From: Tricholoma matsutake
Lineage: Eukaryota > Basidiomycota > Agaricomycetes > Agaricales > Tricholomataceae
NCBI GenBank assembly: GCA_026075535.2
Contig: AP026540.1
Coordinates: forward strand, 7,998,001 to 8,062,000
Length of the DNA stretch: 64,000 bases
Reading direction: 5' to 3'
The translations under genes were made by a program, and so were the position numbers. Shown piece by piece: positions 6,495 to 62,771 of this stretch (position 1 is its first letter; the number at the start of each line of letters is the position of its first letter). The notes under the pieces were generated by a model. It ran no database searches and had not been told where the DNA came from. It saw nothing but the letters and a program-made list of their open reading frames with translations.

Positions 6495-7649
6495 GTATTT
6501 ACAAACTCTCACTTCTCTCATCAAAACCATCCCATCTTTCCTTATGACTCCTACTGAGTCACAAACCCAACAAACTACAAGAAACTCCTAGCAGTCCTGA
6601 TGGCCCCGGGGATGACCCCAATCCTGACGACCCTGATGACCCTCTACCTCCCGTTGGCGGAAATCCTGATCCAGGAGATAGGTTTCTCGATGCTCTCTCT
6701 GAGCTCTCGGATAGTCTCCGAACCCTCCAGCAGAACCAAGCACCTAAGACCGAGAAGATCAAAGTTTGTGATCCTGATACTTTCAATGGGGCTAATCCCC
6801 AGAAACTTCAGGACTTCCTAGTCTCGTGCAACCTTCACTTCCACGATCGTCCTCAGGTATTCACCTCCGACGAAAAGAAAATTCTATTCATCCTTTTCTA
6901 CCTCAAAGGGTCAGCTCTTAGCTGGTTTGAACCTGGACTCAACGACCCAACAAATTCTGCCCATTGGATGTGGAACTACAAGGTATTCCTTAGTGAGTTG
7001 GAAAGCAATTTTGGTCCTCACGACCCTGTCGGGGACACGGAAAAGGCTCTTTCAGAACTCACAATGAAGAAAGGTGGAAGAATAGCAGTAATTTACACTG
7101 CCCCATATGTTCCACATGGATCCATGTGGACTGTGCAGACTCCGTGTGGAGTCCAACCATCTGGTGACCAAGATGAAAAATTACACCCCTTTCACCGCGG
7201 AGTCCACCCAAGTCCATGCGGAGTCCACATAAGTCTGTGCAGAGTCTGCATAAGTCCATGCGGAGTCCACATAAGTCTGTGCAGAGTCCACATAAGTCTG
7301 TGCAGAGTCCGCATTAGTCCGCCCAGAATCCACATAAGTCTGTGGTGAGTCTGCACTTGTAAGGGTCATTGCATAAACACTACTGACTAGCTTACAGATA
7401 CAAGGATCAACTACATGTCACTATCATCATCAGTGTCATATGATACACACACTTTTTTGCCCTTCTTGGGCTTAGGTTCCTTCCCCTTGCTTCCCTTTCT
7501 CATTCTTCTTTTCAGTTGTTTTCAGCTCAGTTTTCTTCTTCTTGGCTTTTGTAGCCTCGTCATCAACTGTTGAGATGGCATGCTTACAGCTAGCAGGAGT
7601 CATCGTGTCATTGGTAGCAGTACACAATTAAGATCAAATAAAATTTATT

Positions 7650-7930
7650 ACCTACATCCCTCACATCTAATGTGAGGGATAATACAATACAATTAACTAC
7701 ATAAAAAACACCCTCCCTCACACCTTGTGCGAGGGGGAGTCCTACAAATATTTATTTACATACAAGACTCACCTGTGTCAGATGCGAGGGGAGGGCGACA
7801 ATTATAAATAAAAAGAAAATCCCCTCGCCCACATAAAATGCGGGCAAGGGGGAAGGCATTAATATGAATTTAAAAAAAACCCCTCCCGGGGCAAAATGCG
7901 GGGGAGGGGGTGGTGTCTTGTCATGGTGCC
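7650..7930. repeat. CCCTC/GAGGG hairpin ladder in element A
   Basis: Five successive inverted repeats of the form CCCTCRCAT...ATGYGAGGG, spaced about 50-60 bp apart by A/T-rich linkers. Examples are atccctcacatctaatgtga at 7654 and cccctcccggggcaaaatgc at 7881. The same arrangement occurs in elements D, C and E. Confidence 0.8.
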
Positions 7931-8486
7931 CGCCATCCTGCATGCATCTCCGTGGTAAAGAAATAAGACAAGAAAAAAAAGAACCTACAGCCCAAGGGAC
8001 GTCGACGTCCCTTGGGCCCTCTTGCGTCATGGTGGGTGCATCTTCCTGGTTGTGTCATCCCGGTGGGGGTTGTCCTGGGCGGCTTTCATCTGTTGCTGCT
8101 GTTGCCATCATTGTCCTGCATGGTTGCTGTCATTGTGTCATTCCTGTCGTCCTGTGTCCCATGGTGCTCCTTGTCATGCTCCCCGCTGTGTGTTCCCCTT
8201 GTCATTCCCCTTGTCATCATTGCCATTCCACCTGCAATCTACCCCCCAAGCAGTGGCTCATGGGGCTGGAGGTGGGTGGTGTGTTGTTGGCCCTGTCATC
8301 ATTGTCCATCATGGTTGGTGGCCATGCTTCGCGTTCTGGGGGGTTCTGGTGCTGGTAGACGGCGGCGTCATTGTTGTCGTCACCTGCACACACTCATGAT
8401 CCACCCTACGAGCAGGGGCTCGCAGGCATGGGGTGGGTGTGTTGGCTCGTTTGCAGGTGGTGGTGTTGTTACTAGTAGACTATAAC

Positions 8487-9225
8487 CTAGAAACTAAAAA
8501 AACGAGTTAGTTAGTTTATAAAAACAAAAAGCAAATGAAAAAAACTCACATAGGGCCCATGTTGGCTTGTTTGCGAGTGGTGGCATCATTGCCAGTAGAT
8601 TATAACCTAGAAAGCTAAAAAAACAGGTTAGTTAGTTTATAAAAACAAAAAGCAAACAAAAAAAACCTTACATAGGGCCCAAACAATGCGATCTGCATCA
8701 TTTGGGCCTGCGTTGGCTCGTTTGTGAGTAGTGGCATCATTGCCAAGGGGTTAGGGGGGGGGGGTAGGCTGTGGGCATGTGTTACGCATTTTTCGCAGTT
8801 GGCAGTCTTGTCGCGTCATTCCACCCACCATCCACCCCACGAGCAGTTGCTTGTGAGGCTGGAGGTGGGTGGTGTGTTGGCGTTGTCATGGGATTCTACT
8901 TGGGGGGGTTGAGCATGTCAGTGTGATGTGGTGTGCGTACAGGGTTGCTGGGTGCTTACCGCATGGGTATCCCCCTTCTGGGGTCTCCCAGCGTCCCTCT
9001 GCACCCTCCTAGCCCATGTCGACAGCCTCACATCCCATTTGAATGGGGAGGTGGGGATTGGGTGGCTGTGCGTGTGCGTTATGCATTTTTCATTGTGGCA
9101 GGTCATCCCCAGTAGTAAACAACCTAAAAAGCATAAAATACAATTAGTTCATTGATAAAAACAAAAAGAAAAAAGAAAAAAACTTATCTGTGGCCCAAAT
9201 GACAGTTGCCGTCGTTTGGGCCCGC
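8487..9225 (-). repeat. Three palindrome-intron modules of element A
   Basis: On the minus strand, intron-like stretches lie at 8549-8487 (GTGAGT...TAACTAAC...CTAG), 8671-8607 (GTAAGG...TAACTAAC...CTAG) and 9187-9124 (donor decayed to ATAAGT). Each is preceded by a GGCCC-type arm; two have the full palindrome (8675-8706; 9191-9222: gggcccaaacgacgg arms). Lengths of 63-65 bp match real introns in this window. A fourth palindrome (7986-8016, cccaagggacgtcgacgtcc) has a GTAGGT donor but no clear acceptor. Confidence 0.8.
8960..9106 (-). other. FKWD block of element A (possible short exon)
   Basis: The minus strand reads SPFKWDVRLSTWARRVQRD followed by AGRPQKGDT and a GTAAGC donor-like hexamer. 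The same peptide and donor occur in element D (56410-56500) and, frame-damaged, in K. It is related to part of I. Nothing is known of its function. Conservation of the peptide beside a donor site suggests an exon, but a conserved RNA or DNA element (cccattcaaatggg is palindromic) is equally possible. Confidence 0.5.
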
Positions 9226-9460
9226 ATTCCATCCAGTCAGCTCGTTTGAAGGTGGTAGTGATGGTGGGAGTGGGCGTGGGAATGGTGGTGGCGTGCGTGC
9301 ACACAGTGGTGGTGGTGGTAGAGTGGAGGGGAGGGAGGGAGGTGGTGGTGTCGATGGTGGTGGTGAGTGATGAGCTGGCAACCTTGATGACGTGACTGTG
9401 TGCTTTGTCATACAAAGCCAAACAGTGGTATGTAGTTGCATCAATGGCCACAAACAATAA

Positions 9461-9540
9461 CGGCTGCGTAGTGTAACGGTAATGCATGTCTGTACTTTCT
9501 TACTTCGTCATGAGGCTACAGGTTCAAATACCATTTGTGA
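9461..9540 (+). other. tRNA-like sequence near the right end of element A
   Basis: Reads ggctgcgtagtgtaacggta (A-box-like TRGYNNARNGG) and, about 45 bp later, ggttcaaatac (B-box GGTTCRANNCC with one change). The 3' side faces the right terminus. It is not a canonical tRNA, since acceptor arms do not pair convincingly. Related features sit in elements C, D and E. Confidence 0.6.
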
Positions 9541-10399
9541 CATTATTTTGCTAAGCTCAAATGGTCTGTTTGGATGCATGTGGACTGTCCTTGCTCATCC
9601 AACCTGGTTTATCATGGATGTGGATGGATGAAATCTGCGGAATCCGAGTAAAATATGTGGAATCCATGTTAGTCTGCATGGATCCGTGTGGACTGTCACA
9701 CCCTGTTGCACAGCTAAAATGGTTTATTGTATGGATTGCAAATGTGCATAGAGTCCGTGCGGATCTGTGTGGAGTCCATGCAATTCCGCACGGATCCACA
9801 TGGAACATATGGGGCAGTGTAAAGACCTCAAGAATAGTGAAGTATAATGTGGACTTCTGGGAACTGGCTTCCTGGGTCAACTGGAATGAGGCTGCTCTTC
9901 ACGACCAGTATTTCTGCAGTCTTCCACTCCATCTCTGCATAGAAGTCTCATGGGGGGGATGACCCAAAACTCTAGCATCCCTACATCTTAAAGCCCAGGA
10001 TGCTGACAACATCTATTGGATGCAGGAAGAAGAAACCTGCTTAGAAACAAAGACCCCCGGAAATTCCGCGCACACCGGAAAGAAGGAATCTAAAGGTTCT
10101 TCTAGCTCCAATTCCAACACTCAGTCCAAACCCCAGCCCTCGTCCAGCACCAACCGCACAAACTAATCCTTGTCCGGCAGCTCCTCTGGGTCAAAGAACA
10201 ACTTCCAGAAGGACAAGCCAAAAAACTCTATTTCTGACAAGTTGGGGAAAGACGGTAAACTAACTGGAGACGAGCGTGAATGCCACATGAAGGAAGGACT
10301 TTGCCTCTACTGCGGTGAGAAAGGACATTGTCCAAAGTCTAAAGCAGCCAAAGCCTGTGCTGCAGCAGTCACTGAGTCCAAGCTGGACTCTGCGGACCC

Positions 10400-29936: not shown

Positions 29937-29977
29937 TCCACAACCCTCAGGATACAGCCATTGGGGCTGGGGGTTGC
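29927..29977 (+). promoter_or_regulatory. -1 frameshift signal, family 2 copy 2 (slippery site altered)
   Basis: Gag ends TCG GAA AAA TAG. The stem CAACCCTC (29941-29948) pairs with 29969-29976 (8 bp with one G-U), 7 bases after the A run. The -1 frame opens as IVHNPQDTAIGAGGC into the protease. The heptamer GGAAAAA is a weaker slippery site than copy 1's seven A's, possibly a decayed version. Confidence 0.65.
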
Positions 29978-39203: not shown

Positions 39204-39403
39204 TAGTGTTGCCACGGCTTGGCTAGCTGCGAGCCGGTTTAGGTAAGCAGTGCAACTCAGCTATTGGTGACTTCATAGCTGGTACAACATGGCTCGACTT
39301 GGCTAAGCTGGTGGCTCTAAGCCAGCTATAGCCACCCAAGTGATGCGTGTTAATCAACAATGTGTTGCTGCCAAATCCTCCTTCCCTTTCTACCACCACC
39401 ATT

Positions 39404-39877
39404 GGCCCAAATAACGATTGCATTGTTCGGGCCTTAGGTAAGTTTTCTATGGTTCATTTCTTGTTTTTATCAACTCACGAAATGTGCTTTTATTGTTTAG
39501 GAGCTGTTCTACTGCAAATGAGGAACATCAATGCCAAACTATGATTGCATCATTTGTAGCCTAGGTAAGTTTGTTTTTGCTTGCTTCTTCTTTTTATCAA
39601 CTGACTAAATGTATTTCTTCATTACTTAGGAGCTATTCTACTGCCAATGACACGTGCCAACAAGGTATGTCCCACACCGAGTGACCATGGCACTACCCGC
39701 TCCTCCCCATCCAAATGGGACATGATAGGTGTTAATTATGGACAAGAGGGTGAAGGGGACGGGGTGGGTGATGCAATGCAGGCCCAAACAATGCAATCGT
39801 TGTTTGGGTCCTAGGCATGTTTTTTTTACTCAATTATTGTTTTTCACTAGCTAACTATTTGTTTTCTTTCCTTTTAG
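39404..39877 (+). repeat. Three palindrome-intron modules of element I
   Basis: Intron-like stretches at 39438-39500 (GTAAGT...TTTAG), 39565-39629 (GTAAGT...CTTAG) and 39815-39877 (donor GCATGT, branch-like GCTAACTA, TTTTAG), each preceded by a palindrome arm such as ggcccaaacaatgc/gttgtttgggtc. After each acceptor the text gagctgttctactgcaaatg or a variant follows. Confidence 0.75.
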
Positions 39878-39919
39878 GATCTAAACTACAGGTAGCAGTG
39901 CAGGCCAACCACCAACAGG

Positions 39920-40065
39920 CCACGACCATGCCACTGGCATCCTCCCCATTCAAATGGGACCTGTTTAGCAGGGTTAGGATGACAGAGAGGAGAGCTTGGA
40001 GACCCGAGAAGCAGGATACCTGCATGGTGCACACCTATGCACCCCCCAAATCTGTGCCCTGACAT
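39920..40065 (+). other. FKWD-like block of element I
   Basis: Reads ASSPFKWDLFSRVRMTERRA then WRPEKQDTCMV. It shares the SPFKWD start and the RP.K.DTC end with elements A and D but diverges between. Function unknown. Confidence 0.4.
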
Positions 40066-40128
40066 GCTAACAAACCCACCAAAGCAGGTGTGGCACTGAC
40101 CCCAGCTCCTCATAACCACCCACCACCT

Positions 40129-40403
40129 GGGGGCTTCCCATGCTTTTATTTCCTAATTTATTCAATGAGTTTTGCATGAAAAATCATGAAAAAATGATTT
40201 TCTGTAACTGTTTTGTTGGCTCTTTGTGATCCAACACATAAAACAATATTTGGGTGACATTTCTCATGTCTCAAGGATGCAAATATATTATTTTGTCTAT
40301 GGTATCACAAGCACCCAATGAATAGCCACTAGAAACTCATTTTTTCATGATTTTTCATGCAAAACTCATTGAATAAATTGGGAAATAAAAGCATGGGAAA
40401 CCC
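40129..40403. mobile_element. MITE M nested in element I
   Basis: Inverted arms of about 75 bp starting CTTCCCATGCTTTTATTTCC at left and its complement at right (ggaaataaaagcatggga). The central 120 bp are not palindromic. No clear target duplication, so the family is unassigned. Confidence 0.75.
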
Positions 40404-41657
40404 ATGGGTAAAACCTGTGCATTTCCCTAGGTGGAACAGCACCAACAATGACTGCACACCCTGCCACTGCTATGAGTGACTGCTCATGGGGTGGAATGGG
40501 GGGTGCTATAGAGGTACAGGCCTCATGAGAGAAGGACCACAAACACTGAAAAGCAACCAGGACCACGATCTTCAAGATGCCACAATGACACAGATGACAC
40601 ACCACCTGCCCCCAGCCTCATGAGCAACTGCTCATGGGGTGCTTAGTGGGTGGAATGGTAACAACAAAGGAGAGATGCTGGCAGATGGGGAGAAGACAAT
40701 GGGCCAACCACCCCTCCCACTGTTGCGAGCAGCTGCTTGCAGGGTGGATGGGAGGAACTGCCAGCAAGGAAGATGGCGGGGAGGAGTAATGAGACTGAGG
40801 GAGCACCAGCAATACCCACTCCGCCTCTGCCTCACACCACAACAAGCACCCCCCACCACCGCTGCGAGCAACTGCTCGTGGGGTGGATATGGGATAAGGG
40901 AGTTTGTGGATGACAGAGGGATGGGGAGACAAAGGCAGAGAGGGCAGGGGAAATCCAGGTGAGAGAGGTGGGGAACCATGACAACAATGACCACAAGGAG
41001 CCGCTGCCACTGCTCCACCATGGCGGGCACCACCACGACTGCACCCCCACGAACAACCCATCCACCTGCCTCTAACCTCACAAACAACTGCTCATGGGAT
41101 GGATGGTGGGTGGAATGACGTGATGATGAAGGGGAACGGGGGCGACACCACCACACTGCAAACCCCAGCTTGTTGGGTGGGTGAGTGGTGAGTGATGACA
41201 GTGGGAGGAGGAGACAAGGGGAGTGATGACAGCCCTGCCCCCCCCCCACCACTGCAAGCATTCACTCGCAGGGTGGCATGGGTGCTAACAGCCATGTCAC
41301 TACCTGTGAGAAAGGGAGACAACAAGAGACAACAATGGCAGGGGGAGATGATGGAGGCAAAGGGATGAGATGGCAAAGGAAGATGACAGCGAGCAGATGC
41401 ACATCATATGCTTTTTTGCCTTTTTTGGCTTTCTTTTCATTTTCATGTAATTATTGTGTATAATCTCAGAATATACATGTTTCTGTTCAATTATTACTAC
41501 ATGAAGTGACACTTGGTAATCCTAAAAATGCAATGAAAAAACTTCTTTATCAATTTTTGAATGTCGAGCCCAAATTCAACAACAATTTTTGTGTTGTTCA
41601 TACCATACTAGCTTAGCTGGCTCCAGCCAGTTCTGAGCCAGAGCCACGGCAAGACTA

Positions 41658-41917: not shown

Positions 41918-42186
41918 TAAGGCATGACACGGGTATAAGTAAACCCATGATAATATGGTTATGGGTATGCATGGTTATGGGTATGGATTGTAAGTTGCCA
42001 TACCTGGGCAATACTGTACCCATTTCCATGGTGTTACAGTTATGTGCGGGTATGCCAGTGCTGGGATTTTGGTCAGGTGAGTGATCATCTGACCTTGTTG
42101 ATTCACTCACAACACCTCTAATTTTAAACTATAGGACGATTCATGACCACCACCAGACTAGTAAGCAACCATAATGGCCACATCAC

Positions 42187-42286
42187 AGCCCAAATGACAT
42201 CTATTGTCGTTTGGGCCCTAGGTATTTTTTTCTATCTTTCGTTCTTGTTTTTTTCTAACTAACTAATGTTTTTATTTGGCTTTTAG
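42187..42286 (+). repeat. Palindrome-intron module of element H
   Basis: Palindrome agcccaaatgac...gtcgtttgggccc (42187-42217), donor GTATTT at 42222, branch-like TAACTAACTAA, acceptor TTTTAG at 42286 (65 bp), followed by gttctaatagtgct. Confidence 0.75.
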
Positions 42287-42354
42287 GTTCTAATAGTGCT
42301 ATAACAATGAGACAACACCATCAACAACACCACCCCACCACCGTTGCAAGCCTC

Positions 42355-42798
42355 TAGGGAAGCACAAGGGTTTTCAAGGGTTTTGAGAACTTTAAAATGA
42401 TTTTGTAAATTATGAGTTCAAATTCAGCAGCAAATGTTTTAATGCATTAAGAAAAAGGATAGGTAGTAGCCCTGTCAAGATTGCTTCCAAAGGCCAAACC
42501 CAACAGAATGCCCTTTGAACCAATGCTGCCCAAAGTGTTGTACAAAATCCATCAGTTAAACACCAAGGGTTCAAAGTAATGAAAACCTTGGAGTTTGCAG
42601 GGGATAATATATTTATTTTATTTTTAACATCTAGAAATTATATGTTCTTGCATAATATTACATGTGAATATTAATGCTAAGCATATGAAGAATGTCTGAT
42701 AAAGATTTTGAGCTCAACAACTGATTAGAAGCAGGACATTTTTATTGGTAGCAGAAATTTGGCTATTACACTTAGGCTAAAACCCTTGTGGTTCCCTA
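42355..42798. mobile_element. Short hAT-type element L (444 bp) nested in H
   Basis: Tips TAGGGAAGCACAAGGGTTTT and, complemented, TAGGGAACCACAAGGGTTTT. Flanks caagcctc / tgagcctc agree at 6 of 8 bases. It interrupts one of the GC-rich hairpins of H (gcaagcctct|gcttgc). No coding capacity. Confidence 0.7.
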
Positions 42799-43497
42799 TG
42801 AGCCTCTGCTTGCAAGGTGGATAACAACAGGGATGGGACCAATGACAAACAAGAAGTGACACACCCTGCCCCCCAGCCTCATGAGCAACTGCTCGTGGGG
42901 TGGATTGTGGGTGGGATGACAATGGGCAGCACCAGCAATGAGGAGTGGTGGGGAGGGAGAACAACAACAAATGATGACAACACCAGGCAAGCAACAACCA
43001 ATGGATGACACACCACCTGCAACTGCTCGTGAGGTGGATTGTGGGTGGAATGACAATGACAATGACAAGGACATGAGGACCACCACCACAACAGCACCCC
43101 CAACCGCTGCCATGAGCAACTGCTCATGGGGTGGAAATGGGGAGCAACTGGTTTTGTTCTGGGCAACTATGGCCACTGTCCCCCCCCCCTCTCGCTGCAA
43201 ACATGAGCAGGGGGGTTTCTTGTTCTGTTCTTGGTGACTCCAGGCAGCACCCCCCCCTCTCTTGCTGCAAATGCAAGTGGGGGGGTTTATTGTTCTATAT
43301 ATTAGCTTAATGTGATTAATTTAGTGTACTTAGATTATTAAGATACATATTTATGTCAAAACCCATGAATAACGATGGGTAACCCACCAAAACAGGTAAT
43401 ACCACACCCTTAACCATAGGAGTATGGTGTTGATGGGTATGGGTGTGGGTATCACAAAATATACCTGGGGGTTACCTGTATCATGCCCTATTGATGC

Positions 43498-44095: not shown

Positions 44096-44101
44096 GATGC
44101 C

Positions 44102-48959: not shown

Positions 48960-50461
48960 TAGTGCTGTGCTTGGCCCAGCCTGGAGCTGTGAGCTGGGCC
49001 AAGCCAAGCCCAAATAGGCCAAGCCAAGCCAGGCTGTGAAGATGGCTTCATGACAGCTTTGGCCTGGCTTGGGGTTCCGAAAAGCCAAAGCCAAGCTGCT
49101 AAGCCATGGCTTCTTGGTGGGCTTGAGCAAAATTTTTGGTGATGAGAAAATTATTTCAATATGGCAATTTAATCGATCGTTGATTGAAGTACATTTCTTG
49201 ATCGTTGCTGAACCATCCTTGAGTAATCCACCATGCACATCAGCTGCATTGCTTATGCCCCTACCATATATTCAACTACCTACTCCTTCAACTTGATTTG
49301 GCAGCAAACTCCATCCATATCCTAGGTGGCTGTGTTTGACAAACATCGCTCATGTTGGCGGCAAATGCACAATGATGGCATTGTGTATGATAAGCTTTTT
49401 GTCATTCTTTGCTTATTCTTTAACTAGTAACCAAATACAAGTTCCATCACACAACACCCATGGCTACACCAGCAAATGACACAAATGGGTCACATCACAC
49501 AGTGTGCACAAAATGCGGCCAAATGACATTTGGGCCAGGTAATTTTTTCCATGTTCGTTTCTTGTTTTTTGCTTAACTAACATATGTTTTCATTAATCTA
49601 GGGGATCTAACGGTGTTGCAACAACACGATGATGACAAAACAAGCCCACACCTAATGATGCCACCACCACCAACCCCAACTGCCACCATCCGTGAGTCAC
49701 TACTTGTAGGAATGGGGAGCAACAATAAAATGGCCAACAACGAGGAAGTAGTTGGGAACAAGGGGAACCAGGAAGAGGGAGAGGACAATGAGGGGAGACA
49801 ACGATGACATGACAACAAGACCAACGAAAATGGGGATGACAGGGGCCAAATAAAAGGACGCCAACAAGACAAGGACAACTTGAAGGACACTGGTGGGTAG
49901 CAGAGGATGATGGCATCAGTGACGATGATGATGGGATGACCAGGACCAGGACCAGACGGCGACATTGACATCAGGGAAGAGAACAATGATGGGGATGAGG
50001 GAGAGGATGATGAGGCCTAGACAATGGGGAAGAGGACAATGACAGGGACAATGAGGATGACGACAATGACACCCCAGCATCAACAATGAATGGCCCAGCA
50101 TCCACCCCTACCATTACTGGTGAGTGGGAAACATGCAACATGTGGTCACAATTTTTTGGTGGACATGTATTTAATTCCACCTCCTCTCTCGCATTTAGGC
50201 GAGTTTAAATTTAATTCAAATTGTTTCTTTGTACATTGGTGGCTCGTAGTTACCCTGAGTGAACACAGTCTGGGGCTGTTTATTGGACAAGAAGACTTGT
50301 ATTGTTCTAATTAGCTTTTTGTATAACTTTATAACCAATGGACCTGTGGGCAAAATTTGAACATTTTACATACAAAAGCCATGGCCTGATGTTCAAGAAA
50401 GCCAACCTCAAGCCAAGCCAAAGCCGCAGCTTTCAGGCCAAGCTGGGCTGGAACAGCACTA
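48960..50461. mobile_element. Non-autonomous hAT element F (1,502 bp)
   Basis: Tips TAGTGCTGTGCTTGGCC and, complemented, TAGTGCTGTTCCAGCC. Perfect 8-bp duplication gttgtaat (48952-48959 and 50462-50469). Subterminal repeats of ccaagccaagcc on both sides. One palindrome-intron module; no GC hairpin ladder and no transposase. Confidence 0.93.
49515..49601 (+). repeat. Palindrome-intron module of element F
   Basis: Short palindrome ggccaaatgacatttgggcc (49517-49536), donor GTAATT at 49539, branch-like CTTAACTAAC, acceptor TCTAG at 49601 (63 bp). Confidence 0.7.
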
Positions 50462-51470: not shown

Positions 51471-51734
51471 CTGCCTATTGCCTTGCAGGATCCTCTTGAG
51501 CAACATGTCAACAAGTTGCTGCCAGGCAAAGAGGTCTTTACACTCCCCCCCCCAATCCGAGCAGAGTCCGCTCAGACACTTGGACTATACTTGGACTGTC
51601 TGAGGACTTTGCTCAGACTTTGCTTGGACTTCTTTGGTTGAAAGTCCTGCCAAACTAGATGTCCAGTCTGAGCTGAGTCCGAGCTGAATCCTTGGACTGT
51701 CTGAGTTGCTTATATAATTGACTGAAAAATCAGT

Positions 51735-51815
51735 GGCTACCACAGGGATTGAACCCTTGTAGTCACATGATAAAGTACATTTAAGGCAACAATATAACCG
51801 TTAGACTAAAGTATC
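51735..51815 (-). other. tRNA-like sequence, left side of element E
   Basis: The minus strand reads tagtctaacggttat (A-box-like) ... gggttcaatccc, a perfect B-box (GGTTCRANYCC) within a T-arm-like stem (ggg/ccc). The 3' side faces the left terminus about 200 bp away. No matching acceptor arm. Confidence 0.6.
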
Positions 51816-52034
51816 ATTACAGGTAGATAGTTTTATCTCTCTATGTACCGCCCTGGCTGTGATGACAAATCAACACAGCCGCATCACCAATGATGATGCC
51901 AGCTCATCATTGATCATCACCAACCACCACCACCACCACCACTCAATGATGACACCTCCCTCCCATGTCCTGCTGCCGCCACTGCCCCCTGAACACCCCA
52001 CAGCCACAGGCCCCATGCCAGCACACGATGAAAT

Positions 52035-52533
52035 GGGCCCAAACAACTCTATCATTGTTTGGGCCCCAGGCGAGTTTTTTCTTTTTTCTTTTCTCATGTT
52101 TTCTTTAAGCTAACACATTTTTTCATTAATTATAGGTTATATCTATACTGTAGCAGCACAATGACCCCAAAACCACCAAACGAGGAACAACGACGAGACC
52201 ACGACCCAGCACCCGCCCCCGCCAGTGTGAGCAACTGCTCACATGGGGGAGAGCAGCTGCTAATGACGACACCACCTGCCCCAGCCCTACGAGCCACTGC
52301 TCGTAGGGTGGACGATGGGTGGAACAATGACAATTAGGGGAGACCCCAACAACAGCCAGCACCCCCCATAACCGCTGCAGGCAACTGCTCATGGGGTGGA
52401 TGGGGGGTGCGAGAGTGCAGGTACCAACAGGGAGACAAAAAAGGCCCAAGGGACGTCAATGTCTCTTGGGTCCTAGGTAAGTTTTTTTTTTCCTTTTCTC
52501 ATTTCATTTTTTGATGCTAACCAATTTTTTTAG
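52035..52533 (+). repeat. Two palindrome-intron modules of element E
   Basis: 52070-52135 (donor GCGAGT, branch-like GCTAACAC, acceptor TATAG; palindrome gggcccaaac...gtttgggccc at 52035-52066) and 52477-52533 (GTAAGT, GCTAACC, TTTAG; palindrome ggcccaagggac...ctcttgggtcc). Confidence 0.75.
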
Positions 52534-52754
52534 GTACAAACTACTACTGGTGATGATGATGATGGGGGGACACCACCACCACCACTGCTGTGAGCCCCTG
52601 CTCACAGGGTGGAAGGTGAGGGTGAAGAGACGAGGGGGAAGGGAGACGAGAGGGAAGGGAGATGAGAGGGAAGGGAGACGACGCGGGGATAGACGAATGC
52701 CGCCATGAGCAACAGTTGCTCATGGTGGGTGTTTTTAATTTATTTTTATTATTG

Positions 52755-52850
52755 ATAGTTACGGCTCCCTCCCCTCGAGCTTGTGAGGGGAGGGCCTAGT
52801 ATTACACATATTAATTACCCCTCTCACAGATGCGAGGGGGTCAATTTAAT
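52755..52850. repeat. CCCTC/GAGGG hairpins in element E
   Basis: Two inverted repeats: ctcccctcgagcttgtgagg (52767) and acccctctcacagatgcgag (52817), with A/T-rich linkers, just inside the right tRNA-like sequence. Confidence 0.7.
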
Positions 52851-52921
52851 AATCTATTCATGATATATATAAAAATTAGATTTCAGTAATAAATAGATAT
52901 AATGTATGTGACTTTAAATGA

Positions 52922-53010
52922 CTACTTGGCTTAAGTGGTAGAGTGTGCATGTTTGGTCATCATGTGATTGCTAGTCCAGAAGTCTGTTGGTTCAATTCCT
53001 GCTGTGCACA
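52922..53010 (+). other. tRNA-like sequence, right side of element E
   Basis: ttggcttaagtggtagagtg (A-box-like, D-arm-like) and ggttcaattcc (B-box) 55 bp later, ending ctgtgcaca. Oriented toward the right terminus. Confidence 0.6.
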
Positions 53011-53357
53011 CATCATTTTGTGAGACTTATAAGAATTTCTGTAAGTCTGGAACTTGGACAGTACTTTAAAGGTGTAAGTAAATGCACAATTGATGTTGTC
53101 TGAGCAAAGTCCGAGTGCAGTCCTCGGACTTTTACTCGGACAACTCGGACAGTCCTAGGACAGTCCGAGTGTCTGAGCAGAGTCCGAGTGAAGTCTGAGG
53201 ACAGTCCGAGTGTCCGAGTGTGTCCGAGCGGAGTCTGCTTGGACTTGGGGGGGAGTGTAAAGTACTGCCAGGCAAACATGAAGACCCAGACATCTTGAAA
53301 GTTGCAAAGGAGTCACACCCATTGCACTTCATTGAATTATCGATTGACAACCAAGGA

Positions 53358-54142: not shown

Positions 54143-54258
54143 TAATATTCCCTTGAACCAATTCAAAACTTCTTTCAAAAAACAAACAAATCTATAAAAG
54201 AAAAAGTTTTTGGATCCTGACCGGATCCCTACTTGCCCTCACCCTCACCTTCCTCACC

Positions 54259-55027: not shown

Positions 55028-55139
55028 GATGATGGTGGTGGTTGGAAGATAACCTTAAAATTCCAATGGATCAACAAACTTCCTGATTCAGACTCAAACT
55101 TTCACATGCCTCATAGGCTCAGCACTAAGGGGGAGATAC

Positions 55140-55350
55140 TGTCAAGACCTGATTTCTCTGTCTGGATTTCCAATCATTTCTGCCAATTTTTTTGGCTGCC
55201 TTGCAGCACTGCTTACCTCCTGTCTGGAGCACAGCCTATGAAATTCCCTCATTTCAGTTATGATGAGGCAGTTCTAGGTCATTGCCTCAGTAGGCTGGTT
55301 ACTAGTTATAGGACAAATAACATATATTGTGAGTGTGTGTCTGGTTTAAG
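55140..55350 (+). repeat. LTR start of family 2 copy 3 (interrupted)
   Basis: TGTCAAGACCTGATTTCTC after gggggagatac resembles the start of the copy 1 and 2 LTRs (homology of the first 150 bp is visible). Element D follows at 55351. Sequence between D and C and beyond C no longer aligns clearly with the LTR end. Confidence 0.7.
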
Positions 55351-55599
55351 GAGTACTTTACACTCCCCCACCTATTCCGGTTGGATTCCGGTTCGTCCGG
55401 CCAGAATTTCCGGAATTTCTGGAATCCGGTGGAATTTTTTTTGTATGTAGTTTTCCCTATGCAGCACAATTCCAGTCGGAATAAGGATCCAATTTACAGC
55501 CGGAATCCCTGGAATCTGACCGGACTCATCACAACCGGAATAACTGGACTAACTGGAATAACCGGAATGCACGTGCTTTCCCAAATAAAAGTTCAACAC

Positions 55600-55670
55600 A
55601 CATCAAGAATTGAACACTCGACCTTGGGTCTGCATATGTAACAGCACACTTAACCACTGAGCTACCAAGC
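55600..55670 (-). other. tRNA-like sequence, left side of element D
   Basis: Minus strand: tggtagctcagtggttaagt (A-box TRGCNNAGTGG, perfect) ... gtgttcaattctt (B-box with one change). 3' side toward the left terminus, about 250 bp away. Confidence 0.65.
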
Positions 55671-55924
55671 AATTATTCTTGGGCATACATTAAATACTTT
55701 TATTACTCAACCAAGGTACATAGTTAATCACAGCCATTAACGGAATAATTAATAAGTATGCATACACATGACATGTGACACGTGACTGCCACCACCACCA
55801 CTGTCGCCAATGCCACCTCCTCCTCTCCACTCTACCACCACCACTGCATGCGCACCCACCACCACCATTCCCACGCCCAATGCCACCATCACCACCACCT
55901 TCAAACGAGCCGACTGGACGGAAC

Positions 55925-56337
55925 GTGGGCCCAAATGACGTAGATCACGTTGTTTGGGGCCTAAGTATGTTTTTTTTTGTTTGCTTCTTGTTTTTCATAC
56001 TAACTAACTTGTTTCGTTTGTTTTATAGGTTCTACTCGACTGCCAGACATAACATGGGCCCAAACAACGTGATTGGACAGAACACAGGCCCAAACGATGC
56101 AGATTGCGTTGTTTCGGCCCTAAGTAAGGTTTTTTTTGTTTGCTTTTTGTTTTTATAAACTAACTAACCTTTTTTTTAGCTTTCTAGGTTATAATCTACT
56201 GGCAATGATGCCACCACTCACAAACGAGCCAATGCAGGCCCAAACGACGCAGATCGCGTCGTTTGGGCCCTATGTGAGTTTTTTTCATTTGCTTTTTGTT
56301 TTTATAAACTAACTAATTGTAATGTATTGCTTTTTAG
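55925..56337 (+). repeat. Three palindrome-intron modules of element D
   Basis: 55965-56028 (GTATGT, TAACTAAC, ATAG), 56124-56187 (GTAAGG, TAACTAAC, CTAG) and 56273-56337 (GTGAGT, TAACTAA, TTAG). Upstream palindromes include aggcccaaacgacgcagatc / gatc...cgtcgtttgggccct at 56235-56270. Units repeat every about 150-160 bp with nearly constant text around them. Confidence 0.85.
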
Positions 56338-56395
56338 GTTGTATACTACTGGGGATGACCTGCCACAATGAAAAACGCGCAACCCATGCCCACGC

Positions 56396-56505
56396 CCACC
56401 CGATCCCCTCCTCCCCATTCAAATGGGATGTGAGGCTGTCGACACGGGCTAGGAGGGTGCAGAGGGATGCCAGGAGACCCCGGAAGGGGGGTACCTGCCT
56501 AGTAA
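56396..56505 (+). other. FKWD block of element D
   Basis: SSPFKWDVRLSTRARRVQRD followed by ARRPRKGGTCL and the donor-like GTAAGC. Near-identical peptide in element A on the opposite strand. The best candidate for a real exon in the shared cassette. Confidence 0.5.
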
Positions 56506-56859
56506 GCACCCACCAACTTCTGTACTCATGCCATGTCACACTGATGTGCCCAAACCCCCCCCCCCCCCAAAAAAAAAGAAAGAAAAAAAAACAGAAATCC
56601 AGACAGGGGACAACAAGCCACCCACCCCCAGCCTCACGAGCAACTGCTCGTGGGGTGGATCGTGGGTGGAATGACGCCCAGGTGCAGGGACAGGAGACAA
56701 CAACGACACACCACCTGCCCCCAGCCTCATGAGCAACTGCTCGTGGGGTGGATCGCGGGTGGAACGACAACGATGACAAGCCACCCACCCCTAGCCTCAT
56801 GAGCAACTGCTTGTGGGGTGGATCATGGGTGGAAGGACAGACAATGGTGGGGTCGCATC

Positions 56860-57131
56860 CCCTCCCCCTCCCCCTCCCCCACACGAAGTGTGGGGAGGGA
56901 TTTTTTTTGTACTTTTAATTATTTATTAGTATTGTGCCCCCCCTCCCCTGTTTTGCATGGGGGAGGGATTTTTTTCTTCATGTTTTTACCTCCCCCCTCG
57001 TGTTCAGCACGAGGGGTTAGCTTTTTATGTATATAAATAAAACTCCCTCTTGCATCTTGTGAGAGGGAGGATTTTTTGTTTATCTATGTAATCACAATCA
57101 TCCCCACTCCCTCGCATTCAATGTGAGGGAT
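56860..57131. repeat. CCCTC/GAGGG hairpin ladder in element D
   Basis: Five inverted repeats at 56868, 56938, 56989, 57042 and 57108 (for example cctcgtgttcagcacgaggg), three followed at once by runs of 6-8 T on plus, like hairpin-T-tract signals. Confidence 0.8.
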
Positions 57132-57216
57132 GTGGTTAATTAAAAAAATTTGATCTTTCACTACTCCGAAAAAAATTAGAGTGTCATGAATAAACATTAT
57201 ATTACTATCTAATAAT

Positions 57217-57309
57217 TCTCCTGTGGCTCAACTGGTTAAGCACACATGTTTGGTTTGTCATGTGATCACTCTAATCAAGATATCTTGAGTTCAATCCTTA
57301 CTCTGCACA
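57217..57309 (+). other. tRNA-like sequence, right side of element D
   Basis: ctgtggctcaactggttaag (A-box-like) ... cacatg-loop-catgtg (anticodon-arm-like stem) ... gagttcaatcc (B-box-like). The 58741 sequence of element C is clearly related. Confidence 0.65.
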
Positions 57310-57849
57310 AATATATTTTGTAGGCACTTTGACAACTTAAGACTTGAAATTTGACTATCCATTAGAGTATATACTCTAAGTTGAGGATCTGGAGTAACCA
57401 GAATCTGGTCGGAATAACCAGAATAACTGGACTCTGACCGGAATAACTGGACTCCAATCAGAATAACTGGACTCTGACCAGAATAACTGGACTCTGACCG
57501 GAATAACTGGACTCCAATCAGAATAACTGGACTCCAACCAGAATAATTGGACTCCAACCAGAATAACTGGACTCCAACCAGAATAACTGGACTCCAACTG
57601 GAATAACTGGACTCCGACCGGAATAGGTGGGGGAGGGTAAATTACAGGGTTTAAGCTACTCTACTAATTAGGAAGGAACCAATTTTTATAGAAAGCAGGA
57701 GCTCTTTACACTGCCCCACGTATTCCTGGAGGAATCCTGGTCTTCCTGGTAGGACTACCAGGATTCCTCCAGGACTATGTGGGGCAGTGTAAAGTTCAGG
57801 AAACCAGCTATCTACTGGTAATGACACCACCACCCACAAATGAGCTGAC

Positions 57850-58050
57850 TGGATGGGCCCTACATAAGTTTTTTTTTCGTTTGCTTTTTGTTTTTATAAA
57901 CTAACTAACCTGTTTCTCTAGTTTTCTAGGTTATAATCTACTGGTAACGATGCCACCACCCACAAATGAGCTGACTGGATGGGCCCTATGTAATTTTTTT
58001 TTTGTTTGCTTTTTGTTTTTATAAACTAACTCATTTCTTTTGTTTTATAG
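57850..58050 (+). repeat. Two palindrome-intron modules of element C
   Basis: 57864-57929 (donor decayed to ATAAGT, TAACTAAC, CTAG) and 57990-58050 (GTAATT, ACTAACTC, ATAG). Only the right palindrome arm (gggcccta) remains in each. Confidence 0.75.
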
Positions 58051-58484
58051 GTTCTACTCTACTGGTAACGACAGCCAGACATGAGACAACCCAACACACC
58101 CACCCCATGCCTGCAAGCCTCTGCTCATAGGGTGGATCGTGAGTGTGCACAACAACAACACCACCACCTACCAGCACCAGAACCCTGAGAATGCAAAGCA
58201 CGGCCACCAACCACGATGGACGATGACAACAGGGCCAACGACACACCACCCGCCTCCAGCCCCATGAGCCACTGCTCATGGGGTGGATTGTGGGTGGAAT
58301 GGCGATGATGGCCACCACCACAGCAGCACCCCAATCTGCCGCCATGAGCAACTGCTTGTGGGGCAGAAACAGGGAACCATTGGGATGGGGACAATGGGGA
58401 GACGGGGACAGGGACAGGGATGGGGACAAGGACGGGGAGCGGGACCCATGCGCCCACACCATGACGAGACACCACCAGGCCGCC

Positions 58485-58640
58485 CCCTCCCCCGCATTTT
58501 GCATGGGGAGGGTTTTTTTTCATTTTTTTTCTTTCATATTAATGCCCTCCCCCTCGCCCACATTTTACAACGGCGAGGGGATTTTCTTTATTTATTCATA
58601 ATTGTCGCCCTCCCCTCGCATTTGATGCAAGGGATGTAGT
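58485..58640. repeat. CCCTC/GAGGG hairpin ladder in element C
   Basis: Three inverted repeats at 58489, 58551 and 58608 (cccgcattttgcatggggag; cctcgcatttgatgcaaggg), T-runs after the first. Confidence 0.75.
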
Positions 58641-58740
58641 TGATTAAAATTATTGATCTTAATAGTGACTTTGAGAGAGATTACATGCTTGAGTTTGAGT
58701 TTGAGTCATAAATAAACTTTATATGGATAACAAATAATTC

Positions 58741-58830
58741 TCCTGTGGCTCAACTGGTTGAGCACACTTGTCTGGTTTGTCGTGTGATTCCTCATCATGA
58801 GGTCTTGAGTTCAATTCCTGCTTTGCACAG
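58741..58830 (+). other. tRNA-like sequence, right side of element C
   Basis: tcctgtggctcaactggttg with an A-box-like core, and gagttcaattcctg as B-box 55 bp later, then ctttgcaca. Oriented to the right terminus 236 bp away. Confidence 0.65.
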
Positions 58831-59074
58831 ATCTGTTTTGTGGGCACATTGTGAAATTTCTGAAGTTGAGGCACTTGAACTCGTAAGATATCAAATTGAC
58901 TTTCCATTATGGTTGGATGTTTGGTAACATACCAGGAATCCTGGTAAGTCCCACTGGATTCCTGGTGAGTCCTGGTGAGTCCTACTGGATTCCTGGAGGA
59001 TTCCTGGTCTTCCTGGTAGGACTACCAGGATTCCTCCAGGACTATGTGGGGCAGTGTAAAGTTCAGGAAACCAG

Positions 59075-61433
59075 CTACATTGAGATATAATAAGTGCAAA
59101 CATGTCCCCCCCAGGTTTGGTGGGGATCACTGCATTCTCCCCCTTTAGCTTCACCCATGGGTGAAGGTAACAAGAAGAAAAGAAACCTTGCAAGTACAAG
59201 GTAAAATTTAAAAAAAAAAACTGAGTCACACCCTGGTGACTCAGTAATGAGAACATCAGTACCACTCAACCTGCAAGTGATGCCAGATGTCAGTTACCAC
59301 ACTCGGCATCCATTGTTGATGCTCTCAAGTCTCCAAATGAACTTCAACATGGAACTCCAAGTCCATGTTGATGAGGACACAGGTATCACTCAGCCCTGCA
59401 AGTGACATGCATTGTTCATAATTCTTGTTGTTAACCAACTAGAATACCTCCATTGATTTAACTTCATGGAGATATTCATAGCATGCATGTGTGTTGCATA
59501 TCATGGCATGTGGCAGGTGTAGGGTGGATTGTAATGTGCTTGGTGACACGTTGGGGCTCAGGCTACAGGTGAATTTATCCCCTGTATGTGTGGGGACAGT
59601 GCAAGAGGCACTGTCTGACATTTACTGATGTTTTTATCCATAGAACAATGAAATTCATTGTTCTTCAGGTCTGGTACTTGATGCAACCACATTGAGTCCA
59701 TCACCTCGACATAAACAAGCTCTGAGTCTCATTCTCCCATCATGGCTGGCTGCTCTGCTCTGTCTTGACTCATGGCTGAAGTGTTCAATGTTTGATTTGA
59801 CCTGTATCACTTGGGTACACATCTATTCCATTTTTTCAATGGCTGATGGATGTTACTGGATGTCTGTCCTTTTCTACATTAGTTTCTCCCCCTCTGCCTT
59901 GATTCTCTGCTGAGGTCTTTAGGTCTTCAACAGGATATGTATCACACTGACCCACATCTCTCTTTCTTTGTTGCAAATGACAGTTCTTGTCATTTTCCTG
60001 TAGCTTCATGGTGCAATTGTATGCTGCCAGTATGTTTGTTTTCTTCATGCATTTTCTTAGCCTCGATGCTAACTCATTGTGGCTATTGACCAGTGCACCA
60101 TGTCTTGGGTTTCCTGAACATGATACTCTGTTCTCCTTGTCGATGAGCATATTGTCTCATTGACTCTGCATTTCTTGGAGCTCCGAATGATGTGAAATGA
60201 CATCCTTCTGGTTGGGTACTGGATGATCATTTCTGATTGTCTCTTTCTCTCTGGTACAGACAATGCTTTGTCTGGGGACTTTCATGGCTGCTTGCCTCAA
60301 ACAACAACCTCTCTGTCATTGTTATCCCATCTATTTCTGTGGGGCCTGGTGGCCCACAGTTTTCTGCTCAGTCTTGACAACCTTGACTCTATGTCTTTTG
60401 TGGTCATCTTGTCTTTCTCTCTACCTCACACCATGGGCAAGGTATTAGATCTCTCATTGTGGCATGTATTGTCTTGTTGCATGCATCTGTTCTCTATTTG
60501 AAAATGGTCACCACATGGTTCTTGTTCATTGACAATGCTATCTGCATTGTCATCTCCTTGCTTGGCAGTGAGGTCATTATAACTACACTCAGCCATTCTC
60601 ACATCAGAGTGATGTGCATCTGGCCAATGTACATCTCAATTATTTGCTATCAAGGCATCCAAATAATGTCTATCATCAAGTTTTATTGTCTGCCAGGATC
60701 CAACTCCATCCCAATGACTATCTTTGGTTGTCTCCTCTTTACTTGGTATCTGTGTGTCTGGTTGACACGCAGCTCTCTGCTGATTTTTGATAACTTTGAC
60801 TCTGCATTGGTTAGTTGTCTTCATCTCAGTTCTCTGCTCTCTCTCAATGACCTTGACTTTGTGTCAGTCATTTTCCTTCACCTTCAGACTTGGCTTTTGC
60901 TGGGGGGCATGCCCAGCAGTGTCACTATATGCTCATCTCTTGATGAGCAGTGGAAAATTGCTGGTTAAAGCCTCTCCAGTTACACAAGTCTTACTTTGTG
61001 TATCTAGATTTCTCAGTTCTCATCTGGGTTGCTGAGGGTCAAGATGTGAGCATCTGAGTGGCACACTACTATCTCAAGTACTGCTTGAGAATACTGCTCA
61101 ACAGTAACTAACTTATGATGCCCATGGGCCTCATAAAAATCTCTGGACTTTTGAAAGCCAGCTGAACATGGATTATCTTGTGCCCAAGAAGTGCTATCTC
61201 ACACCTTCAAGGTGCAAGAATGATGATGGGTATCTTGACAAGCCATGCAGGGTGAGAAAAAAATTTGGGCATTGTGGAAGGATGACAGGGCATCCAACAC
61301 TAAGGTAACACAGAACTAAAGTGGAATGGAATATATTGTTTGTGGTATGAGATGAGGATACAATGTGTGGTTGATAATGGTTATAAAGGGTATGTCAGGT
61401 GATCACATGTATTAGGTAAGAGATACTCTTACA
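59075..61433. other. Gene-poor, eroded sequence; LTR-like end at 61433
   Basis: No intact coding region. Minus-strand fragments (THACYEYLHEVKSMEVF, ETQDMVHW) hint at an eroded Copia-type element, but no catalytic motif is visible. Plus-strand hydrophobic frames (60459-60968) come from repeated cttgactctg/tctttctct text. 61433 reads, on minus, TGTAAGAGTATCTCTTACC, a plausible LTR start just beyond the chromointegrase fragment. Confidence 0.35.
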
Positions 61434-61444
61434 CTCTCCCATGT

Positions 61445-61990
61445 ATTAAAAATTGCTTACGGTGCCATTTTGAGCCAGTTTGCATACACTTCTGTCTCTG
61501 CGACCTCTCATTTTGGTAGCCACAAATCAGCCTCTGGACCATATTCTAGCCACCTGACAAGGAACTGTTTTCCATGGCCACAAGTTTGCTGGTCCACAAT
61601 TTGGTCAATGAAATATTCTGTTTTGCCCTTGGCCATTACTATTGGTCCTGGACATTCCAGTGTGCGTGATGAGGATAGGTTGGGGTCATTCTCTATGAAT
61701 GGGCAAAGCAAGGAGGAATGGAAGGTGCAGTGGATTTTTGTTGCTTTGGGGAGTAGTAGTGTGTATGTGGAAGAGTCAGGGTACACTTGGGTTACTTTGA
61801 AAGGCCCATCGAATCTGGGCATAAACTTTGCCACCTGGCCATCTTTCACTTGCATGTATTCCCAATGTCTGTGGGCTGTTGCAAGTAATATGTGGTTGCC
61901 CACTTCAAATGTCAGGTCAGGTGCATGGTCTTTGTTTGCTTGGAGGGCTTGGCTTATCTTTGCCGCCATCAGTGATAGTCTTTGAGGGTC
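61445..61990 (-). pseudogene. Chromointegrase C-terminal fragment (Gypsy)
   Basis: Minus strand: KISQALQANKDHAPDLTFEV (GNHILLAT, GPY/F region: KFMPRFDGPFKVTQVYPDSS), HSSLLCPFIENDPNLSSS and a chromodomain EYFIDQIVDQQTCGHGKQFL-VRWLEYGPEADLWLP. Open over 160 codons, ending near 61445. The upstream part is cut by element K. Different from families 2 and 4. Confidence 0.8.
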
Positions 61991-62771
61991 CAGTTGCTGC
62001 AACTGAAAAAAAACCGGAACTCAACTGGACCCAACCGGAACTCAACTGGACCCAACCGCAAGCAACTGGTCTTTCCAGTTGCAGTTGGGCCTCATTGTCA
62101 ACAGTTGTGGTTGCAGTTGGTAGGCTCAGGCCCGCAAGTCCAACCAATTGGAACCGGTCACAACCGGTCGCAACTGGGTGGCCTTACCTCGCTACTCAAT
62201 CTTAGATAGTACAATTTTTATTTTATTTTCTATGTAATTTACTTACTCCATAACAAATTTGGGGCATGCCCAAGGAATGACGGATGGGCAAGGGTTTATA
62301 TATGTTTGGGCCATTTGTATATGTTTGAATATATGTGGTGCAAGTAAACAGCAATGCAACACATTTGTTTGTATGTGTCATCGTTCACTTCTCATGACAA
62401 CAACAACAATGGCCACAAACAACATGGGCCCAAACGACGTTATCATCGTTTGGGCCCACAGTAAGTTTTATTTTGTATATCTTTATGTTTACTAACTTTA
62501 TTTCTATGTTTTTAGGTTGAAATTCTTTGGTAACAACATGCGCCAATGCATACAAACCACACCCACCCACTCTACCTCCTCCTCCCCATCGAAATGGGAT
62601 GTGAGGAGTGCCAATCAGTCAGGAGGATGGGGAGGGACACCAGGAGACCCCAGCAGGGGGATACCTGCCAGGTAAGCCCCCCCAGCCACACCCACCTCCA
62701 TGCCACATTGATGATACTCAACTCGGGAAAACCACCAAAACAGCCAATGAGGCAACCAATGATATTTGCAT
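61991..62771. mobile_element. Element K, modular non-autonomous element (ends not defined)
   Basis: Starts with repeats of ggaactcaactggacccaac and ccggtcacaaccggtcgcaa, typical of the subterminal zones of its relatives, then one palindrome-intron module and an FKWD block (62575-62670) with the donor-like GTAAGC. Terminal repeats and a target duplication were not found. It stops where the 62772 Gypsy-like sequence begins. Confidence 0.55.
62425..62515 (+). repeat. Palindrome-intron module of element K
   Basis: Palindrome gggcccaaacgacgttatca / tcgtttgggccc (62426-62457), donor GTAAGT at 62461, branch-like TTACTAAC, acceptor TTTAG at 62515 (55 bp). Confidence 0.75.

Follow-up and report, generated by a model that had tools for sequence, protein, structure and literature searches.

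Why should several DNA transposons with different ends carry one and the same intron-like module? The question is raised by a 64,000-nucleotide stretch of the Tricholoma matsutake genome (contig AP026540.1 of assembly GCA_026075535.2; G000:C3:7998001-8062000), referred to below as the window, in which eight elements, A, C, D, E, F, H, I and K, contain a palindromic hairpin (HP1) followed by a short tract resembling a spliceosomal intron. The original prediction for this window offered three options: a spliced non-coding RNA needed by the elements, introner-like units that spread into them, or frequent exchange of ends. Of the three, the first is the best fit and introner spread is disfavoured. 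We lean towards the reading that the modules are parts of one inherited gene for a spliced, structured non-coding RNA, carried by non-autonomous hAT-like DNA transposons, with splicing predicted from the sequence. The order of the parts, their polarity on one strand, the splice signals, the covarying hairpins and the lack of coding signs together fit a spliced structural RNA.

HP1 modules in the window and in the genome

The window holds 17 HP1 hairpins or remnants: four in A, three each in E and F, two each in C and D, and one each in H, I and K. An intron-like tract follows 16 of them, the exception being a variant hairpin of A, GCCCAAGGGACG (7989-8018, minus strand), with no clear intron. 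The sixteen modules in eight elements that had been claimed were thus all found on reading the window. Their tracts start with GT in 12 cases, with GC in two (52070 and 39815), with CATAAG in one (C, ~57864) and with GATAAG in one (A, ~9188).

The module is repeated throughout the genome, which was searched over 161,040,721 bp in 13 contigs with the reversed sequence as control. The exact arm GGCCCAAACGACG occurs 625+568 times (1,193) against 0+1 in the control, and the arm joined to a 5' splice site, pattern CGTCGTTTGGGCCN{2,6}GTRNGTTT, 366 times against 0. The most complete pattern, TTTGGGCCN{30,60}AACTAACN{4,30}TAG, which sets TTTGGGCC, a branch motif and TAG at intron spacing, has 2,850 matches against 1, with some modules counted twice since two TAGs can fit one module. 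Module scans of prokaryote and viral contigs gave 0 and 0 matches, as expected for a fungal repeat.

Is the tract tied to the hairpin, or did the search select it? We sampled 60 loci (L011-L070), the first exact-arm places listed, on contig C1 up to about 10 Mb, chosen on the hairpin and not on the intron. Among 123 hairpins from the window and these loci, defined without reference to the intron, a canonical GT..YTRAY..YAG signature lies on exactly one side in 91, on both sides in 1 and on neither in 31; the background is 4.9% per shuffled side, and 773 of 18,300 random places. Most of the 31 have a one-sided tract with an altered site (CATAAG, GATAAG, GC or a lost 3' AG). Viewed from the intron, a stem ends at most 8 nucleotides upstream of 35 of the 65 T-rich intron signatures in the window and 20 long loci, against 7 of 325 control positions, a figure inflated by the ascertainment of the loci on HP1. 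RNA folding of eight modules gave the HP1 stem every time (z-scores between -5.1 and -1.6).

Splice signals and their conservation

The tract has the sequence features of a spliceosomal intron: a GT or GC 5' site, a branch motif, a terminal YAG and a short, fungal length. Among the 104 modules with G[TC]RNG, 83 have their 5' site 4 nucleotides from the stem and 99 have it at 3-5. A 5' site is kept in 115 of 134 modules with a T-run (GT in 110, GC in 5, neither in 19). Among 144 T-rich hairpin sides, 133 contain a YTRAY branch motif and 127 a YAG, and hairpin-side tracts measure 48-73 nucleotides up to the first YAG. The last exon base is free (G 35, T 27, A 24, C 14%). The splice signals lay outside the search pattern, except for T-richness, which was used for strand choice; the core GGCCCAA belonged to the pattern, and its conservation is no evidence. 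Host introns are too few for comparison, with only two candidates of 52 and 69 nucleotides.

Linking modules that align over at least 130 nucleotides at 72% identity or more sorted 143 of them into 19 clusters. The largest has 109 members and the other eighteen have 1 to 5 each; four clusters are represented by the antisense side. GT or GC near the stem, the branch motif and YAG are kept in most of the 19; L030_3676, L041 and W_8018 have no clear branch motif, and the L048_504 cluster has no 3' AG.

A GC-rich stem with a T run within about 10 nucleotides could also be a transcription terminator or attenuator, or a signal at the DNA level, its likeness to an intron being secondary, and similar stem and T-run units lie near the 3' end of the unit. 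We regard this explanation as very unlikely: it leaves unexplained the GTAAGT at a fixed distance, the CTAAC at branch-point spacing, the terminal YAG and the use of GC as an alternative 5' site.

Order and polarity of the cassette

The HP1-intron modules open a larger cassette. Read 5' to 3', they are followed by a middle block that is conserved, by repeated copies of a second hairpin (HP2) and finally by U-rich stem-loops. Element E shows the whole arrangement on the plus strand: three modules, the middle block CTCCCCATTCAAATGGGA..GGTACCTG (56405..56515), three HP2 copies, GAGCAACTGCTC..GGGGTGGAT (56620..56830), and U-rich stem-loops followed by an A-rich tract (56860..57150), the presumed 3' region of the RNA. 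The middle block, ~110 nucleotides long, aligns in 19 stretches, including A, E, K (62578..62685, plus strand) and two in F. Its homology spans E and A with CAGTAATTTACACT-type ends, the two copies in F with TAGTGTTGCC ends, and K with a left tip of the TAGTCTTTGAGG type.

A pattern search detected HP2 in 12 of the 16 elements examined (L024, with an unconfirmed duplication, among them), always on the sense strand of the introns. In all twelve the first HP1 precedes the first HP2, and A and D have further HP1 between HP2. The pattern found none in I, L012, L022 and L027, and HP2-like variants were seen on reading L012 and L027. Stem and T-run units lie downstream of HP2 in 9 of the 16.

The cassette is also polarised with respect to the ends. 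All 15 bounded TTTACACT-type elements (A, C, D, E, L013, L017, L018, L019, L020, L023, L025, L028, L029, L030 and L071) have the sense strand oriented alike, from the side of the GAGxxC-type tip (in L071, GAATAC) towards the CxGxAx-type tip; since they share ancestry, this counts as a single observation repeated many times. Outward-facing, tRNA-like box A/B pairs lie close to the ends in six of the nine TTTACACT-type elements tested (C, D, E, L020, L025 and L029; not A, L019 or L024) and in none of seven other elements; ten pairs occur in the 16 elements against 0.1 in base-composition shuffles. In the window they are at 55607-55664 (minus) and 57224-57297 (plus) in E, the latter within a tRNA-like stretch at 57211..57330, at 51746-51808 (minus) and 52927-52998 (plus) in D, and at 58746-58817 (plus) in C. 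ARAGORN found no tRNA in the window, and tRNA-like here means box A/B only.

In L015 (170-1994) a palindromic, F-like stretch with a TAGTGTTGCC-type tip is apparently inserted just before the second intron of the element. L014, L015 and L016, which lie 95-191 kb apart on C1, have in common 3-9 kb stretches with the cassette at 96-99% identity, apparently recent repeats or a segmental duplication. In L019 (4328-7860), an element 3.5 kb in length, a long GACGACTGGACAAGACAAC-like array separates two introns, and the second intron follows the left hairpin arm only.

Covarying stems and the absence of coding signs

The structure of the presumed RNA was examined through covariation. Among 42 unique HP2 copies read on the sense strand, the third outward pair is TA in 23, CG in 15 and GC in 2, so that 40 of 42 are Watson-Crick against 19.9 in shuffles (reached by 0 of 2000). 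Pairs 1 (16/2000) and 2 (0/2000) are also above the shuffles; pairs 4 and 5 are not. In four 3' stems aligned across nine elements, 95.8% of the cells are paired (shuffled, 93.7), against 45-67% in slid controls. Change on both sides occurs at 8 of the 46 pairs (shuffled mean 4.0, reached by 3 of 500 shuffles) and in 14 cells (4.7 shuffled, 0 of 500), and the covariation score is above all 500 shuffles. The middle block has a weak consensus fold. As a general proof of structure HP1 covariation failed: only pair 8 covaries, with a compensated GGGAC/GAGAT class.

The unit shows no sign of coding for protein. Exons between introns are mostly 86 or 95 nucleotides long, also 106 and 236, and none is a multiple of three. 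The spliced interiors of six elements (330 nucleotides upstream, the exons and 500 nucleotides downstream) have 8-21 stops per frame, and in the 17 rows of the middle block the variable columns are even across codon positions in all frames. On exon lengths, stops and the lack of codon bias we reject protein coding, although open stretches remain, the longest per element being 72-193 amino acids.

These results also bear on the idea that the tracts are remnant introns of a protein gene, a transposase or a captured host gene, whose coding sequence was lost. Decayed genes are usual in non-autonomous elements, and hAT transposase or dimerisation domains are common here, with 151 matches in the genome. 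The exon lengths, the stops in the spliced frames, the middle block without codon bias and exons that end in hairpins all speak against such an origin, to which we give scarcely any credence. The known repeat megB1 was considered as the identity of the cassette and is unsupported; in the extracts of the source, it is described as a dimeric Alu-like element, with a copy outside the rRNA gene in section Caligata.

Ends, target duplications and superfamily

Target-site duplications of 8 bp flank seven of the eight window elements, matching at 8/8 positions in A, D, E, F and I and at 7/8 in C and H; the right end of K was not found. Element A (7086..9829) has its sense strand on the minus strand, the tips CAGTAATTTACACT (left) and GAGGTCTTTACACT (right) and the duplication AAGAATAG. 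The others read on the plus strand. F (39204..41657) has the tips TAGTGTTGCCACGG and TAGTCTTGCCGTGG and the duplication gtctgtac; H (41918..43490), the tips TAAGGCATGACACGG and TAGGGCATGATACAGG; I (48960..50461), the tips TAGTGCTGTGCTTGG and TAGTGCTGTTCCAGC and the duplication gttgtaat. D (51531..53268) has the tips GAGGTCTTTACACT and CAGTACTTTACACT and the duplication CAGGCAAA, its ends being ambiguous by a few bases, and E (55351..57647) has GAGTACTTTACACT, CTGTAATTTACCCT and the duplication GGTTTAAG. C (57699..59066) is tipped by GAGCTCTTTACACT and CTGAACTTTACACT, and K (61976..62700, the end a lower limit) has the left tip TAGTCTTTGAGGGTCC.

The modules lie inside these boundaries. On the minus strand of A are a hairpin at 8676-8708 with the tract GTAAGG..CTAAC..TAG (module 8600..8708), a decayed hairpin of which only the right arm is left, with a tract GTGAGT.. 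(8470..8575), and a hairpin at 9192-9222 whose tract has the degenerate 5' site GATAAG (9110..9222). F has three modules: hairpin 39404-39433 with tract 39438-39501 (39404..39501), a decayed hairpin with tract 39565-39629 (39531..39629), and hairpin 39781-39810 with tract 39815-39877 and a GC 5' site (39781..39877). H has hairpin 42187-42217 and tract 42222-42286 (42187..42286). The module of I consists of hairpin 49505-49536 and a tract from the GT at 49539 (49505..49601); a second HP1 candidate, at position 14 of this element, is tip region and no module. In D, hairpin 52036-52065 precedes tract 52070-52135 with a GC 5' site (52036..52135), and the variant hairpin GGCCCAAGGGACG..GTCTCTTGGGTC precedes tract 52477-52533 (52443..52533). 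The three modules of E pair hairpins 55928-55960, 56087-56119 and 56237-56269 with tracts 55965-56028, 56124-56187 and 56274-56337 (55928..56028, 56087..56187 and 56237..56337). C has two modules with a decayed left arm, their tracts starting at ~57864 (CATAAG) and ~57989 (GTAATT; 57848..58050 together), and K has hairpin 62427-62456 with tract 62461-62515 (62427..62515).

To which superfamily do the elements belong? The hAT tip consensus is YARNG. The TAGTG and TAAGG tips of F, H, I, L012, L022 and L027 fit it, and from their sequence the TAG- and TAA-tipped elements are classed as hAT-type. The original prediction had given TAGNG tips to F, H and I; H has TAAGG at one end and TAGGG at the other. 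It had also placed TTTACACT(C/G)CCCC at the tips of A, C, D and E. This did not hold: TTTACACT lies ~6 nucleotides inside the true tips (GAGxxC.../CAGTAA...), and the 8-bp duplications appeared after extension. Membership of this group in hAT is likely but unproven, because its CAGTA/CTGTA and GAGxxC tips fit the consensus incompletely and because 8-bp duplications also occur outside hAT, for example in Zisupton, according to the extracts of PMC12730594.

The 8-bp duplication is shared by the tip types CAGTAATTTACACT/GAGGTCTTTACACT, TAGTGTTTTAAGGTC, TAGTGTTGCCACGG, TAGTGCTGTGCTTGG and TAAGGCATGACACGG. The claim of one cassette under unrelated ends is retained in its first half, a homologous interior under differing tips, and softened in its second: since bounded elements of both groups have 8-bp duplications, the ends look less unrelated than first claimed. 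Allowing up to two mismatches, CAGTAATTTACACTCCCC occurs 2,227 times in the genome against 29 in the control. Exchange of ends and old common descent cannot be told apart from the present data.

The boundaries also bear on the introner option. Introners are units that enter genes as new introns, and on this view the module of hairpin and intron would itself be the mobile unit, moving into transposons and genes alike. In its favour are the high copy number, the full set of splice signals and the inverted repeat next to them; the original prediction had proposed a check for modules outside hAT elements. At the 20 long loci, two tip patterns place the central module inside a bounded element (8/8 or 7/8) in 12, and L019 (7/8) makes 13. 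The central module is unbounded at the other seven (L011, L014, L015, L016, L021, L024 and L026). With 16 of 17 window modules and these 13 in elements bounded by duplications (module-level insertion sites and host genes were not searched systematically), the same order and neighbours each time, and extra copies that include ~150-bp tandem units, independent spread of the module seems to us extremely unlikely.

Function or inherited ballast

The main rival to a spliced structural RNA is that the cassette was inherited from one ancestral element and has been carried along by amplification without an RNA function, its splice-like signals surviving only through recent source copies. We hold this to be unlikely, yet several observations weigh against a functional RNA, and some of them count directly for such ballast. 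First, the bases beside the splice site are as well conserved as the site itself: conservation is 75-84% at the three bases that follow the stem and 75-82% at the GTAAGT positions, so that the splice site is not distinctive within this sample, in which one family predominates; 109 of the 143 sampled modules fall in one cluster. Second, the subfamilies with altered sites (CATAAG, GATAAG, lost 3' AG) are present in several copies. Third, in 82 unique HP1 copies, pairs 9, 10, 12 and 13 vary mostly by CpG-type transitions with no significant compensation, and HP1 arms are without general covariation. Fourth, among E-type copies three 100-nucleotide windows of the module array are the most diverged, with 10.1-14.7% at non-CpG sites against 2.2-9.8% in the other 20, a divergence inflated by slipped alignment of the tandem units.

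Further points of this kind concern the RNA itself. In the 3' stems, whose structure was derived from the alignment on which it was tested, further pair types number 21 against 23.0 in shuffles (489 of 500 as high). One sense frame of the short middle block is stop-free in 14 of 17 rows. Rfam gave no family at the gathering threshold in the window, and none of its 18 sub-threshold matches in 51400-59200 is named tRNA or ENE. A whole-genome search for intronless copies with one joined-exon pattern, covering the main 3' exon type, had 0 matches, so that processed copies provide no proof of splicing. No transposase partner was found when hAT-domain matches were compared by eye with the listed exact tips only; a candidate autonomous partner at C2 (L071) was rejected, the hAT domain near its module falling outside the module-bearing element.

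Two results stand against inheritance without function. The signals and their order persist between families whose flanks and ends fail to align at the threshold used, and compensatory changes occur in HP2 and in the 3' stems.

The copies of the E type, compared with 55353-57648, differ by 11.8-30.7% at CpG-type sites in most 100-nucleotide windows and by 0-4.4% in 57053-57352; non-CpG sites differ by 2.2-14.7%. The excess at CpG sites, where copies decay as the ballast reading expects, suggests CpG mutation or methylation.

A model of the probable RNA unit

Under the favoured reading of a spliced structural RNA, the unit would begin with one to four exons, each ending in HP1 ~4 nucleotides before the 5' splice site of a T-rich spliceosomal intron of ~50-70 nucleotides. 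The conserved ~110-nucleotide middle block and the HP2 array would follow, and in the 3' part U-tracts would alternate with GC-rich stem-loops ahead of an A-rich stretch. In some of the CAGTAATTTACACT-tip families, the outward-facing tRNA-like sequences near the ends come in addition. Most likely, RNA polymerase II transcribes the unit and the introns are removed. The mature RNA would string small hairpins together and finish in stem-loops at its 3' end, which may stabilise it or retain it in the nucleus, and it would help source elements to evade silencing or to be mobilised in trans. Transcription, splicing, RNA stability and any role in transposition are thus what we infer from the arrangement.

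A bolder proposal, which we advance tentatively and consider doubtful, is that mushroom DNA transposons carry a functional spliced, structured non-coding RNA of an undescribed kind. This RNA, a series of hairpins with a stabilised 3' end, would be required by the elements for mobilisation or for escape from RNA silencing. The hairpins at the 5' splice sites would control splicing, and the unit would have persisted through the exchange or divergence of tips and subterminal repeats.

Comparison with known systems

The elements resemble non-autonomous hAT elements and miniature inverted-repeat transposable elements in their 8-bp target duplications, short inverted tips and thousands of related ends. 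What sets them apart is the shared interior, a non-coding unit that is structured and polarised and holds intron-like tracts, beneath several families of ends; the TTTACACT group begins with CAGTA or GAGxxC, not with YARNG. With introners the modules have in common that an intron with all its splice signals and with inverted-repeat sequence is present in many copies; unlike introners, they occupy, at the sampled loci, a fixed place inside transposons.

The 3' region recalls two stabilising systems. In MALAT1-mascRNA, as in E-type elements, stem-loops rich in U are accompanied by an A-rich tract and, downstream, by a tRNA-like sequence. The E-type tRNA-like parts differ in matching no tRNA model and in lying ~70 nucleotides past the A-tract, and E-type elements have another, of opposite orientation, close to the 5' end. 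ENE elements are reported in plant and fungal transposon RNAs, with stress, in the extracts of PMC12501189, on long terminal repeat retrotransposons and the poly(A) tail. In the matsutake region, too, stem-loops and U-rich tracts stand close to the 3' end of what would be a transposon RNA, and E-type copies have U-runs beside stems and an A-tract. It differs in that its consensus fold has no U-rich internal loop with an enclosing stem and no Rfam match at threshold, and we offer an ENE reading as no more than a suggestion. Rust fungi, too, have hAT elements that carry cargo, TET+ hAT7; according to the extracts of PMC12730594, whose main text makes no mention of Tricholoma, that cargo is a protein and the duplications are of 7 bp.

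Traces outside this genome

A 200-amino-acid antisense frame over the middle block and HP2 array matches 40 unnamed proteins from ENA and JGI sources at E <= 1e-5, and 33 of these contain short peptide words spelled by HP2. The antisense of the middle block was also found in P0001 and P0013, among eight inspected, and P0001 has, when read in the sense direction, the middle block ahead of HP2. A frame across HP1 has four protein matches, of which P0042 appears to contain an intron start, hairpin and exon at 64% identity. All these matches are at the protein level, and some could come from matsutake itself.

Neighbouring features

Other mobile sequences share the window. Retrotransposon reading frames lie at 10661-13963 and 28785-33492; Pfam confirms only the reverse transcriptase/RNase H frame at 11300-12604, the others being assigned by resemblance. 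A DDE_Tnp_4 transposase frame occupies 36096-37031 on the minus strand, with an inverted repeat of 195-nucleotide arms nearby (37569-38029). Two further inverted repeats, at 17525-18014 and 46633-47167, have arms of ~200 nucleotides that are 78% complementary, and are ~71% alike between the two places.

Meaning for transposons and their host

According to the extracts of PMC10211490, 25.4% of the Tricholoma matsutake genome is listed as 'unclassified' repeats, and the cassette would help to name repeats within this share. No description of such a transposon-carried RNA family was found in the open-access literature, judged in part from 10 and 8 listed matches out of hundreds; even if the RNA is silent or unspliced, the cassette would still mark a large repeat family not described there. 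As far as we are aware, cut-and-paste DNA transposons are generally thought to need only their ends and a transposase. If a conserved, polarised and probably spliced RNA unit does persist under different ends, some DNA transposons would rely on RNA, and the elements would make it possible to test concretely what introns in transposon transcripts mean for genome defence in basidiomycetes.

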